Shown: positions 13,918-19,567 of the stretch, piece after piece
Layout: the number at the start of each line of letters is the position of its first letter
How positions within the stretch are numbered: position 1 is the stretch's first letter
Source of the DNA: Calidithermus chliarophilus DSM 9957
GTDB lineage: Bacteria; Deinococcota; Deinococci; Deinococcales; Thermaceae
Assembly: GCF_000430045.1 (NCBI RefSeq)
Contig: NZ_KE387023.1
Span: 1,071,575 to 1,116,500 of the forward strand
Length of the DNA: 44,926 nt
Direction: 5' to 3'
The notes under the pieces: model-generated
Told to the model about the DNA's origin: nothing
The model's database searches: none
The model's input: only the letters and a program-made list of their open reading frames with translations
Made by a program: the position numbers and the translations under genes

Positions 13918-15593
13918 GGCAACGTCCCCGCGTGCGCGGGGAAAACGATCAGGTGCAGCGGTGGGTGCAGGCGATGGGCGGTTCATCCCCGCGTGCGCGG
14001 GGAAAACTGGTCTTCATTTCTCCTCCGTATAGCCATAACCGGTTCATCCCCGCGGGCGCGGGGAAAACGGCTCGCCCCTCGTGGGCGTGCCCCGGTCGCA
14101 CGGTTCATCCCCGCGTGCGCGGGGAAAACTCTTTCGTAGTGGACGTGCTCAAGCGCGTCCCCGGTTCATCCCCGCGTGCGCGGGGAAAACGCACGCGCGT
14201 ACGCCCTCGAGTTTTGACCCCACGGTTCATCCCCGCGTGCGCGGGGAAAACGCGGGGCCAGGAGGGGTCGGGCCAGCGCCCGGTGGTTCATCCCCGCGTG
14301 CGCGGGGAAAACGTAAAGAATTGTCCGTAAAAAACATTGTCAATCGGTTCATCCCCGCGTGCGCGGGGAAAACAGCCACGCGTGGTCGTGCCAGGGGAGG
14401 CCGCGCGGTTCATCCCCGCGTGCGCGGGGAAAACGAGCCATGGGTTTTCTCCTTGGGGTCTAGAGGCGGTTCATCCCCGCGTGCGCGGGGAAAACAGCCG
14501 GAACGCCTTACCCCGGTAGATTGAGGTCGGTTCATCCCCGCGTGCGCGGGGAAAACTGCCAGGTGTACGCGAAGTGGGTCTGGCCGGGCGGTTCATCCCC
14601 GCGTGCGCGGGGAAAACGGGCTGGGGGCCAGCTCGCGGGCCACCAGCACCGGTTCATCCCCGCGTGCGCGGGGAAAACGAAAGAGGGCCTAATGAAACCG
14701 TCATCATTTACGGTTCATCCCCGCGTGCGCGGGGAAAACGGTCGGCAACATCACCACCTCCACCACCAAGCTGGTTCATCCCCGCGTGCGCGGGGAAAAC
14801 GGCCACGCGCAGCAGCGGGGTGCCGTACTCGTCGGTTCATCCCCGCGTGCGCGGGGAAAACGCATCGCCAGCAGTTGGCTCTAGATAGGTCCTCCGGTTC
14901 ATCCCCGCGTGCGCGGGGAAAACCCCTCCTTCGGCACGGTGGCCCCGGTGGTGCTCGGTTCATCCCCGCGTGCGCGGGGAAAACTCGAGGTACGTCGCCC
15001 CCGACGGGCGCAAGGGCGGTTCATCCCCGCGTGCGCGGGGAAAACGCCGTCGGAGGCCAGGTACTCGCGGCTGGCCTCGGTTCATCCCCGCGTGCGCGGG
15101 GAAAACTTGGGCTTTCTCCTTTTTCCCGGACGCCCCTGCGGTTCATCCCCGCGTGCGCGGGGAAAACGTGGGGCTCTTGTCGGCGGGGAACACGGTGGCC
15201 GGTTCATCCCCGCGTGCGCGGGGAAAACTGTTTCAGCCACGTGTTTCTTGGCAGAAACTCCGGTTCATCCCCGCGTGCGCGGGGAAAACGACGCCTACGG
15301 CCTCCGCCACAAGGCCGGGGACGGTTCATCCCCGCGTGCGCGGGGAAAACGCGCGGCCCGTCGCGGCCCGTCCCAGGCCCGCGGTTCATCCCCGCGTGCG
15401 CGGGGAAAACAGCTTCTTGAGCTCGGACAGGATGGGCGTCTTCGGTTCATCCCCGCGTGCGCGGGGAAAACGGTCTGCGCAAGAGCCTGAGGCTCAGGGA
15501 GGCCGGTTCATCCCCGCGTGCGCGGGGAAAACTCGGTCATCGTCTTCCCTCGGAAAGCCCCCGGCGGTTCATCCCCGCGTGCGCGGGGAAAAC
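13918..15593 (-). CRISPR. Type I-E-like CRISPR array, 28 repeats and 27 spacers
   Basis: Twenty-eight 29-base repeats with the dyad core CCCCGCG-TG-CGCGGGG. Spacers are 32 bases except number 16 (33) and number 24 (31). The plus strand matches the reverse complement of the E. coli I-E crRNA strand, so crRNA should come from the minus strand, with 5' handle ATGAACCG. This agrees with decay at the left end: the repeat at 13918-13946 has a ruined outer part, and the one at 14040-14068 has a core change (GCGGGCG). Two repeats (14284, 14772) differ at one outer base. The leader is therefore on the right. No cas gene lies within the window. Confidence 0.97.
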
Positions 15594-15707
15594 ACTTGGT
15601 CCTATCGAGCAAAACTGCCCCTCGAGCCCCCGGAAGTGTCTCGAGCCGGTTTTCAAGGATCGCCAACCCCTCGGGCCGATGGACCTATCCTAGCATCGGG
15701 CGGGCGC
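15594..15707 (-). promoter_or_regulatory. Probable CRISPR leader
   Basis: The 114 bases between the last intact repeat and the ABC permease stop codon. Read on the minus strand they contain GCTAGGAT (a TANNNT box), a run GAAAACC and GCAGTTTTGC before the first repeat. The left end has no room for a leader. It must also serve as the end of the permease operon, transcribed in the same direction. Confidence 0.55.
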
Positions 15708-16526: not shown

Positions 16527-17440
16527 GGGGCCTCCTCGGCGTGCAGGGCGAAGTAGACGTCCTCGAGCGAGGGCTCCTCCAGGCTCACCCGGTACAGCCC
16601 GACCCCGCCCGCGGCCAGGCGGCTCACCAGCGCCGGGACCTCCTCGCGCCGGACGCCGGGCACGCTCAGGCTGCCGTTCTCGCGGCGTTCGGCCTTGGGG
16701 AGCAGGCTCAGGGCGGCGGGCAGGGTGGCGGGGGTGACCTCGAGCACCAGCCGCACGCCGCCCAGCCGCCCGGCCAGTTCCTCCGGGGTGCCGATGGCCC
16801 GCAGCCTGCCGCGCTCGAGCACCGCCACCCGGTGGCAGAGCAACTGGGCCTCGGCCAGGTTGTGGGTGGTGAGGAAGACGGTGCGCCCCGCGGCCTGGAG
16901 CCCGCGGATCAGCTCGTGGACCTCGCGCGCGGCCACGGGGTCGAGGCCGGAGGTGGGCTCGTCGAGGAAGATCAGCTCGGGCTCGTGCAGCAGCACCCGC
17001 GCCAGGGCCAGGCGCTGCTTCATGCCCTTGCTGTAGCCGCCCACCCGCTCGTCGGCCCGCCCGGCCAGGCCGAACTGCTCGAGCAACTGCGCCGCGCGGG
17101 CGCGGGCCTGGGCGGGGCCCAGGCCGTAGAGCCGGGCGTAGATCTCGAGGTTCTCCCGGGCGCTGAGCCGCTCGTCCACGGCGGGGGTCTCGGTGAGCAC
17201 GCCGGTGCGGCGGCGCAGGGCGGAGCCGTCTCGGGCGGGGGAGAGGCCCAGCACGACGGCCTGGCCGGAGGTGGGCTCGAGCACCCCGTTCAAGAGGCGC
17301 ACGGTGGTGGTCTTGCCCGCGCCGTTATGGCCCAAGAAGCCGAAGACCTCGCCCGCGGCGACCTCGAGCTCGAGCCCGTCGAGGGCCAGGATCTCGCCGA
17401 AACGGCGGCTGAGCTGGTGGGTCTGGATCACGGGGTTCAT
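16523..17440 (-). CDS. ABC transporter ATPase (NatA/CcmA-like)
   Basis: A 305-residue ATP-binding subunit. Walker A is GHNGAGKTT, the signature is YSKGMKQRLALAR, Walker B is LIFLDEPTSGLD, and the switch histidine is in LTTHN. A C-terminal extension of about 90 residues ends SLEDVYFAL, the usual end of the DrrA/CcmA-like group. It drives the permease encoded next. Its start overlaps the end of the methyltransferase-like gene by four bases, so three genes are coupled in series. Confidence 0.95.
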   Translation of the reverse strand: MNPVIQTHQLSRRFGEILALDGLELEVAAGEVFGFLGHNGAGKTTTVRLLNGVLEPTSGQAVVLGLSPARDGSALRRRTGVLTETPAVDERLSARENLEIYARLYGLGPAQARARAAQLLEQFGLAGRADERVGGYSKGMKQRLALARVLLHEPELIFLDEPTSGLDPVAAREVHELIRGLQAAGRTVFLTTHNLAEAQLLCHRVAVLERGRLRAIGTPEELAGRLGGVRLVLEVTPATLPAALSLLPKAERRENGSLSVPGVRREEVPALVSRLAAGGVGLYRVSLEEPSLEDVYFALHAEEAP

Positions 17441-17913
17441 GGGGGTTCGCCGAGGCGGGGCACCCAGCGGGGCACGCGGCGGCAGTAGTCGGCGTACGCC
17501 GCCCCGAAGCGCCGCCTCAGGTTAGGTTCCTCGTAGAAAATGACGAAGAGGTGAAAGGCCGACAAGACCAGCAGGGCGTACAGCAGCAGCCTCCACGAGC
17601 CGAAGAGCAGCGCCTCGCCCAGCAGCATCAGCCCCACGCCCAGGTACATGGGGTTGCGCACCCGGCGGTAGAGCCCCTGCACCACCAGCGTTTTGGGCGG
17701 GTCGAGGGGGGCCGGGGTGCCGCGCCCGCGGGCCGCGAAGTCCCACACGCACTCCAGGTAGACCGCGGCGCCCAGGGCGACGGGCAGCAGCCCCAGCCAC
17801 TGCCAGGCGAGGGCGGGGCGGGGGTAGCTCCAGCCCAGCAGCCACAGGGGGACCCACAGCACCATCGTGGCGGGGGCCACCAGGGTGAAGAGCAGGGCCT
17901 TGAGCCAGACCAT
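17437..17913 (-). CDS. Isoprenylcysteine methyltransferase-like membrane protein
   Basis: A 158-residue protein with four to five membrane helices. The C-terminal block GLYRRVRNPMYLGVGLMLLGEALLFGS followed by EEPNLRRRFGAAYADYCRRVPRW is the ICMT/PEMT signature, in which the R-NPMY segment and the E-E-x-L-R segment hold S-adenosylmethionine. It could methylate a lipid or prenylated substrate in the membrane; the acceptor is unknown. It starts 8 bases after the repeat protein stops and overlaps the ABC ATPase gene by four bases. Confidence 0.85.
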   Translation of the reverse strand: MVWLKALLFTLVAPATMVLWVPLWLLGWSYPRPALAWQWLGLLPVALGAAVYLECVWDFAARGRGTPAPLDPPKTLVVQGLYRRVRNPMYLGVGLMLLGEALLFGSWRLLLYALLVLSAFHLFVIFYEEPNLRRRFGAAYADYCRRVPRWVPRLGEPP

Positions 17914-17921
17914 AGCGCCCT

Positions 17922-18416
17922 TCAGCTCGAGGCGGCAGCGCTGGACTGGTGGTCCTGCTCGAGCGCCTCGAAGGCGATCACGGCGGCCAGCGCGGCGACC
18001 TCGAGCGGCGCGGCGGTGGACAGGCGCACGTCCTTGCCGTCCACGCGCCCCCCGATGCGCCCGCTGAGGCGGTTGGGCACGGTGGTCTTGAGGCTCACGT
18101 CGTGCCCGATCTTCGGGCCGCCCAGCCGCCCGGTGAAGCGGGTGCGGCCGAGCTCGAGGCGCAGGTCCTTGCCGAGGGTGGCCCCGCCCAGGCGCAGGCT
18201 CAGGGCCTGGGGCCCCAGGGTGCCCCGCACGTCGAAGCCGACGTGTTTGCCCCCGACCCGCCCGCTCACCTCGCCGTCGCCGACGCTGAGGTGAACGTCC
18301 TTGCCCTGGTGCGCCCCGCCGATGCGGCCCGTGAGGTGGGCGCCGTCCCAGGTCAGGTTGACGTCGTATCCGGTGGCGAGGCCGCCGACCCTCCCGCTGA
18401 TGCGCTGCTTGGTCAT
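17922..18416 (-). CDS. Protein with six 22-residue GRxGG repeats
   Basis: A 164-residue protein of no family I recognise. The pattern [ST]-G-R-[VIL]-G-G-x3-G-x-D-[VL]-x-L is repeated with the paired glycines at residues 11, 33, 55, 77, 99 and 122 and the aspartate at 18, 40, 62, 84, 106 and 129, a strict 22-residue period with one extra residue in the last. Alternating polar and hydrophobic residues suggest stacked beta strands, perhaps a short solenoid. The C-terminal 30 residues form a helix and a polar tail. There is no signal peptide. It starts one base after the ribbon-helix-helix gene stops, so the two are co-translated. Confidence 0.75.
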   Translation of the reverse strand: MTKQRISGRVGGLATGYDVNLTWDGAHLTGRIGGAHQGKDVHLSVGDGEVSGRVGGKHVGFDVRGTLGPQALSLRLGGATLGKDLRLELGRTRFTGRLGGPKIGHDVSLKTTVPNRLSGRIGGRVDGKDVRLSTAAPLEVAALAAVIAFEALEQDHQSSAAASS

Positions 18417-18417
18417 C

Positions 18418-18603
18418 TCAGTCCTCCTCCGCGGGGGCCTCGGACTGGGCTTTCACCCTCAGCCGCCCCGCCCTGCGCACCGACTCGCGCAGCACGAACT
18501 CGATCTGGGCGTTGACGCTGCGGAACTCGTCGTCGGCCCAGCGCTCGAGCGCCTCGTAGAGCTCGGGGTCGATGCGCAGGAGGAATTTCTTCTTCTCGGC
18601 CAT
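18418..18603 (-). CDS. Arc-like ribbon-helix-helix protein
   Basis: A 61-residue protein with [41 protein letters not shown]: a beta strand (FLLRID) followed by two helices and the turn RSVNAQIE, the Arc/MetJ-type ribbon-helix-helix fold. It should bind DNA as a dimer. No toxin gene is adjacent, which makes an antitoxin role unlikely. As far as I recall, Arc-like genes are often found next to SPFH-domain genes, as here, and may act as their local regulator. The acidic tail is short. Confidence 0.85.
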
Positions 18604-18611
18604 AACTACAC

Positions 18612-18661
18612 GGCTCGTGGCGGGTGGCCTGTGGCTTGCGGCTTACTCCGGGCCACGAGCC
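18612..18661 (+). repeat. Heptamer array G with inverted repeat
   Basis: GGCTCGT, GGCGGGT, GGCCTGT, GGCTTGC, GGCTTAC run in 7-base phase (18612-18646). GGCTCGTGGC at the left is repeated in inverted form as GCCACGAGCC at 18652-18661, giving a hairpin between the SPFH gene and the Arc-like gene. Confidence 0.6.
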
Positions 18662-18670
18662 ACCGGCCCG

Positions 18671-19567
18671 TCAGTACAGGCTGCCCGTGTTGATGATAGG
18701 CGAGGCCTCCGACTCGGAGACCAGGGCCACCAGCAGGTTGTTGACCATCGCGGCCTTGCGCTCCTCGTCGAGGTCCACCACCCCCTCGCTCTTGAGCTGC
18801 TCGAGGGCCTGCTTGACCATGCCCACCGCGCCCTCGACGATCTTCTGCCGCGCGGCGATCACCGCCTGGGCCTGCTGGCGGCGCAGCATGGCCTGGGCGA
18901 TCTCGGGGGCGTAGGCCAGGTGGGAGATGCGGGCCTCGAGCACGTCGATGCCGGCGATCTCGAGGCGCTTGTGCAACTCCTTGCGCAGCTCGTCGCCCAC
19001 CTCGTCGGGGTTGCCGCGCAGCGACTCGGTGCCGTCGTGGGTGTCGTAGGGGTAGCGGCTGGCGAGGGCGCGGATGGCGGTCTCGGACTGGATGGCCACG
19101 AACTCCTGGTAGTCCTCCACGTCGAAGGTGGCGCGGGCGCTGTCGGTCACGCGCCAGACGATCACCGCCGCGATCTCGATGGGGTTGCCCGTCGCGTCGT
19201 TGACCTTCAGCCGCTCGGAGTTGAAGTTGTTGACCTTCAGGCTCAGCTTCTGCTTCTTGGCGAAGGGGTTGACCCAGTACCAGCCGTCGCGGGTGATGCT
19301 GCCCGTGTACTTGCCCAAAAAGGTGAGGACCCGGGCCTCGTTGGGCTGCACCACCAGGAAGCCCCCCATCAGGATGAAGCTCAGCACCATCGCGCCCACC
19401 CCGTACAGCAGCGTGGGCAGCTCGGCCTGCTCGTTCGCGCGGCTGCCGATGACCTCGAGGACGAAGTCGCGGAATTGCAAGCCGCCCCAGGCCAGCAGCC
19501 CCAGCACCAGGATCAGGCCCAGAATCCCCGGCAGCGCCAGGGCCCTCTTCTCGCGGGTGACGTTCAT
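18671..19567 (-). CDS. SPFH/band 7 domain protein
   Basis: A 298-residue protein. Two hydrophobic segments lie near residues 12-30 and 52-72, followed by [35 protein letters not shown], the opening of an SPFH (stomatin/prohibitin) domain. The middle holds [24 protein letters not shown] and the last third is a long charged helix with [24 protein letters not shown], typical of the band 7 coiled region. Such proteins assemble in membranes and organise microdomains. AGGAGG precedes the ATG. It follows the alpha/beta hydrolase after 42 bases and precedes the Arc-like gene. Confidence 0.93.

Follow-up and report, generated by a model that had tools for sequence, protein, structure and literature searches.

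The repeat protein described here is best explained, with a probability of roughly 0.6, as a soluble 12-stranded barrel that closes around its own helix and acts as a non-catalytic accessory or binding module. Its gene lies in a 44,926-nucleotide stretch of Calidithermus chliarophilus DSM 9957, which is called the window below (Table 1). The protein would be cytoplasmic, its six 22-residue hairpins forming an up-and-down barrel around the hydrophobic C-terminal helix. On the outer surface, the arginine of each unit would lie opposite the aspartate of the same hairpin, giving a ring of six pairs, and leucine and glycine would alternate on the inside, leaving space for the helix. Such a barrel could serve whichever enzyme operon the gene has joined, and one subfamily, class D below, may be specialised for sulfate assimilation. 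The fold of the window protein is fairly secure as a prediction; its function we infer.

Table 1. Coordinates of the repeat gene, its parts and its neighbours in the window.
Feature	Position	Strand	Remarks
Six-hairpin repeat protein, 164 aa	17922..18416	(-)	ATG at 18416, stop at 17924-17922
Repeat unit 1, residues 4-25	18342..18407	(-)	Strands 4-10 and 17-23
Repeat unit 2, residues 26-47	18276..18341	(-)	
Repeat unit 3, residues 48-69	18210..18275	(-)	Gly65 in place of the usual inward Leu
Repeat unit 4, residues 70-91	18144..18209	(-)	Leu74 in place of the usual inward Gly
Repeat unit 5, residues 92-114	18075..18143	(-)	23 residues
Repeat unit 6, residues 115-136	18009..18074	(-)	
C-terminal helix, residues 138-163	17928..18005	(-)	Hydrophobic 139-149; probable barrel core
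PEMT/ICMT-type methyltransferase, 158 aa, downstream	17437..17913	(-)	Pfam
Ribbon-helix-helix (RHH) neighbour, 61 aa	18418..18603	(-)	Kept beside SPFH across genomes, not beside the repeat gene
SPFH/Band 7 neighbour, 298 aa	18671..19567	(-)	Band_7, 7.9e-26

The repeats in the window protein are confirmed. Residues 1-134 give 35 identities at an offset of 22; in a control of 20,000 shuffles, each scored by its best value over offsets 5-44, the maximum was 28 and no shuffle (0/20,000) reached 35. Units measure 22 residues, apart from the slightly longer unit 5. A sequence-only reading of this DNA had placed glycine pairs at residues 11, 33, 55, 77, 99 and 122 and an aspartate seven residues past each, and the translation bears out both series, with the aspartates at 18, 40, 62, 84, 106 and 129. 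That reading had also described a regular, beta-rich fold without a named sequence family, and this description held: the window protein matched no Pfam family at E<=1 and no PDB sequence, NCBIfam returned a single row far under its cut-off, and family profiles drew only weak, unrelated rows from the PDB. Elsewhere in the window, open reading frame translations at about 14081-15700 carry a repeating GSSPRARGK/RFIPACAGKT/VHPRVRGEN pattern, which we take to be the usual signature of a CRISPR array when it is translated in frame.

A query with the single protein recovered relatives in 14 of 101 related genomes; a profile (A1) recovered them in 15 of 111 genomes from the phylum. A plasmid search matched 5 of 72,556 records, all from Deinococcus or Allomeiothermus, and three further family queries against plasmids again returned only these two genera; a scan of genome contigs, which requires near-exact peptides, gave two loci, both in C. 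roseus. These searches, although not proof, show the family only in Deinococcota, where it is scattered among heat- and radiation-tolerant bacteria. The relatives were sorted by sequence into three classes: class A, which includes the window protein and has six GRxGG units; class C, with a shorter fourth unit and an ending like APGWIGALVAVVAFYALE; and class D, with an N-terminal extension, worn repeats and a longer terminal helix. Fifteen class A proteins make up alignment A5, and seven class C and eight class D proteins are in alignment A2 alone. Gene contexts were compared over 32 repeat loci (the window, L033-L059 and L087-L090), some of them short, with contigs ending nearby. Two contig-end fragments from one genome (G015; L058 and L059) are counted among the 32 loci and stand outside the alignments, and a D. 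ficus match and a G050 match (L072) stand outside both alignments and the 32 loci. Among the publications listed by literature searches, we recognised none as describing this repeat family.

The six-unit layout is common to all 15 aligned class A proteins. Across their units, position 6 is arginine in 98% and position 15 aspartate in 89%, positions 3, 7, 16 and 18 are hydrophobic, and positions 5, 8, 9 and 13 are mostly glycine; the consensus reads hydrophobic-x-G-R-hydrophobic-G-G-x-x-x-G-x-D-V-x-L, with hydrophobicity alternating along the strands. In the modelled hairpin register, Arg9 would lie opposite Asp18, which points to one outward Arg-Asp pair per unit. The inward pair between adjoining hairpins is Leu-Gly in 13/15 proteins at junction 1-2, in 15/15 at junction 2-3 and in 14/15 at junction 5-6; at junction 4-5 it is Leu-Gly in 11/15 and Phe-, Ala- or Val-Gly in the rest. 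Junction 3-4 (residues 65/74) is reversed, with Gly-Leu in six proteins, Gly-Val in five, Gly-Ala in two and Ala-Ala in one, and the D. deserti protein is the sole class A case with Leu-Gly at these residues. The swap may reflect compensation between strands 6 and 7, a reading based on this single protein with the opposite orientation. Between proteins, units that occupy the same place in the array share 48% identity, against 36% for units from different places; the array is therefore old and not freshly copied. No conserved catalytic set stands out, conservation falling on structural glycine, arginine and aspartate and on the core.

AlphaFold2, given an input alignment of three rows, modelled the window protein as twelve short strands in six hairpins (4-10, 17-23, 27-32, 39-46, 49-55, 60-68, 71-76, 83-89, 93-99, 104-110, 116-121 and 128-134) followed by the C-terminal helix (pLDDT 87.9, pTM 0.87; five models at 86.4-87.9). 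The regular beta-rich fold expected by the earlier reading thus stood in the prediction, in the form of a closed barrel and not of a solenoid; the solenoid was rejected on the strength of the twelve strands in hairpins and the high pTM. When the same proteins were cut at residue 135, the strands were nearly unchanged and pTM was 0.64, with model means of 79.7, 65.6, 60.7, 49.5 and 47.1, a drop in confidence that is expected were the helix the core of the barrel. We infer from the alignments and this truncation that the helix, itself hydrophobic, sits inside the barrel. That the six hairpins close into a 12-stranded barrel with a helix is, on these models, very probable.

Structure searches with VIA-align, in which a Z near 8 can reflect merely a common arrangement, gave as best matches 4e1s for the full model (Z 9.9, rmsd 3.6, 154 aligned, model range 1-163) and 3qq2_B for the cut model (Z 9.4, rmsd 3.7, 135/135 aligned). 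Both best matches are outer-membrane barrels, which we take to be 12-stranded with a segment in the pore. An outer-membrane barrel was itself rejected on reading the protein, which has no signal sequence, strands of seven residues, and arginine and aspartate facing out. Foldseek gave no PDB match at E<=0.001 for the window-protein model. Tubby, LURP-one-related (LOR) and scramblase chains were absent among the best 50 matches listed by Foldseek and by VIA-align for the full and cut models, an absence that excludes nothing.

The top Foldseek rows were fatty-acid-binding proteins (FABP) and retinol-binding proteins, with a probability of up to 0.97, and it is on these that one would base the idea of a ligand carrier of the FABP or lipocalin kind. 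The top FABP-like rows, however, have TM-scores of only about 0.37-0.41 and an rmsd mostly of 5-6, and the model has 12 strands and a cavity that would most simply be filled by the helix, all of which makes a carrier quite improbable.

The neighbours in the window are as the sequence-only reading claimed: the RHH gene stops a single base short of the ATG of the repeat gene, and SPFH lies upstream. From this arrangement that reading had proposed that the repeat protein may be a partner or scaffold of SPFH membrane microdomains, and the window and C. roseus do share a tight, same-strand esterase-SPFH-RHH-repeat-PEMT cluster. SPFH orthologs at E<=1e-40 are present in 27 of 61 genomes, however, and the repeat gene is within 1.5 kb in only two of these 27 loci, both in Calidithermus; conversely, SPFH and RHH genes are near 2 of the 32 repeat loci (the window and C. 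roseus), so the linkage is lost in relatives. Where both genes are present elsewhere, for example in Allomeiothermus silvanus (G007), they are unlinked. As a role for the family, the SPFH partnership is thus largely refuted and is the least probable of the alternatives weighed here. An RHH gene, by comparison, lies within the 1.5 kb flanks of SPFH in 25/27 genomes, and from these two counts the SPFH-RHH pair appears to be the older arrangement, to which the repeat gene was added in Calidithermus. The RHH gene of the window matches RHH_5 at 27.4 bits and Arc at 20.7 bits, both barely over the Pfam cut-offs. The conserved SPFH-RHH pair (window 18418-19567, (-); L123-L149) may be the more interesting linkage; a literature search on SPFH and ribbon-helix-helix proteins in Thermus gave no result.

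A different association is kept in class D, which adjoins sulfate-assimilation genes in 8/8 loci, compared with 0/24 for the other loci. Six of these loci have the order cysC-cysH-sat and two have DUF4395-sulfite reductase, and in five of the six cysC loci the end of the repeat gene and the start of cysC share 4 nt. Overlaps of this length are frequent among the adjoining enzyme genes cysC, kynB and alr. Class A genes occur as kynB-repeat-kynU on two Deinococcus plasmids, as repeat-alr with a 4-nt overlap, as asnS-repeat, and in other places without a shared partner; no single partner can be named from contexts so diverse. The presence of kynU, alr and, close by, an arginine decarboxylase raised the idea of a PLP-enzyme theme, which was set aside because the evidence was slight. 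Class C adjoins a Zn_peptidase_2 gene in 2/7 loci and an ArsR-type regulator in 2/7. It is because of this gene order that we propose an accessory or binding role, and for class D a tie to sulfate assimilation; we hold the role to be a possibility of somewhat less than even weight.

Two pairs of loci carry segments that are nearly identical across genera. The window genome (L033:5636-7904) and A. silvanus (L038:4990-7258) share a 2.27 kb segment that includes a class A gene and is 99.6% identical in the two, which suggests a recent transfer, and an integrase-type gene lies just past the segment in L038. C. roseus (G001; L037:7396-11683) and a genome of a different genus (G025; L052:3291-7578) have the sulfate cluster, class D gene included, at 99.0% identity across 4.3 kb, a case of transfer or contamination.

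Such segments, together with the plasmid copies and the presence of the family in so small a share of the phylum, would also be expected of a weakly constrained accessory gene that spreads with mobile DNA and has little cell function in most hosts. Between the two Calidithermus, dN/dS by the Nei-Gojobori method is about 0.6 for the repeat gene (dN 0.097, dS 0.163), compared with about 0.10 for SPFH and 0.19 for RHH, from which the repeat gene is weakly constrained. We nevertheless consider this explanation unlikely as a whole, given that the six-unit layout and the R/D pairs are kept across families and that class D stands beside sulfate genes at every one of its loci. We give similarly low weight to a membrane adaptor that uses its rim or arginine belt to bind phospholipid head groups and recruits partners to the membrane. 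The predicted architecture is in common with Tubby-like proteins (as presented in parts of PMC10584680), and several neighbours have to do with membranes or lipids (SPFH, PEMT, G3P acyltransferase, VanW and DUF4395), but each arginine is paired with aspartate, so that the belt would form no free positive patch; by eye, the protein has no signal or lipoprotein motif, and the neighbours of class D are mostly soluble sulfur enzymes. The soluble accessory module thus remains our preferred reading. A wider claim, which we regard as doubtful, is that Deinococcota have here a previously unnamed family of barrels with nearly sixfold symmetry, that the duplication of hairpins behind a Tubby- or beta-flower-like fold is still legible in its sequences, and that it provides metabolic operons, chiefly those of sulfate assimilation, with a dedicated accessory subunit. 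A readable six-unit symmetry and a pathway-tied subfamily offer a way to test the origin of such rings by hairpin duplication, the same family offers a way to test what bacterial helix-wrapped barrels do, and the symmetric unit is a natural template for thermostable design.

Among known systems, MORN-type repeats are glycine-rich hairpins of about 22-23 residues and thus resemble the unit in size and composition. The repeat protein differs in having no Pfam MORN match at E<=1 and in being predicted as a closed ring with a core helix. With FABP and lipocalins it would share an up-and-down antiparallel barrel, and from them it differs in strand number, in its core helix and in the low TM-score.

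Tubby-type proteins have a 12-stranded barrel around a hydrophobic helix, and Tubby-like proteins bind phosphoinositides or act as scramblases (according to sections of PMC10584680). A barrel of this kind is proposed for the repeat protein, and the difference from the Tubby, LOR and scramblase families lies in the short strands, the still visible sequence repeat and the lack of a match to their profile models: a Pfam scan of 26 family members returned no beta-flower, Tub, LOR or Scramblase model, and four other models hit one member each, weakly. A separate LOR protein (PF04525), barely over the cut-off, is encoded in the genome of the window (G000:C3:40011-40193, L092), the only one of 11 genomes searched in which PF04525 was found; searches with it gave no plasmid relatives and no useful PDB match.

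In its predicted design the protein is also like the beta-flowers (PF21784, PF21785 and PF21786, clan CL0395; Durairaj et al. 2023, PMC10584680). As described in the parts of that paper drawn on here, beta-flowers have four-, five- or sixfold hairpin petals with 8, 10 or 12 short antiparallel strands, many enclose a hydrophobic C-terminal helix, longer loops lie on one side, and a semiconserved [DNEQ]XXG marks the hairpin tip; the sixfold forms are likened to Tubby, and those parts give no assigned function for the bacterial ones (PMC10584680). The model of the repeat protein likewise has 12 strands in six hairpins and a hydrophobic C-terminal helix. It differs in its sharp GRxGG...GxD repeat and at the tip, where [DNEQ]XXG occurs in 15/88 units of the 15 proteins and in 0/6 of the window protein. 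When the three beta-flower models were run over the 111 genomes, no repeat locus was among the matches; the true PF21784 members (L093-L102) are other proteins of the same phylum, over the cut-off in 12/111 genomes, and hhalign of the repeat-family profile with nine of them found nothing (Prob 0.1). Because none of the 26 members matches a clan HMM and the tip motif is missing, we do not file the family under beta-flower; going by its model, the repeat protein is constructed in the manner of a sixfold beta-flower barrel and perhaps works in a similar way.
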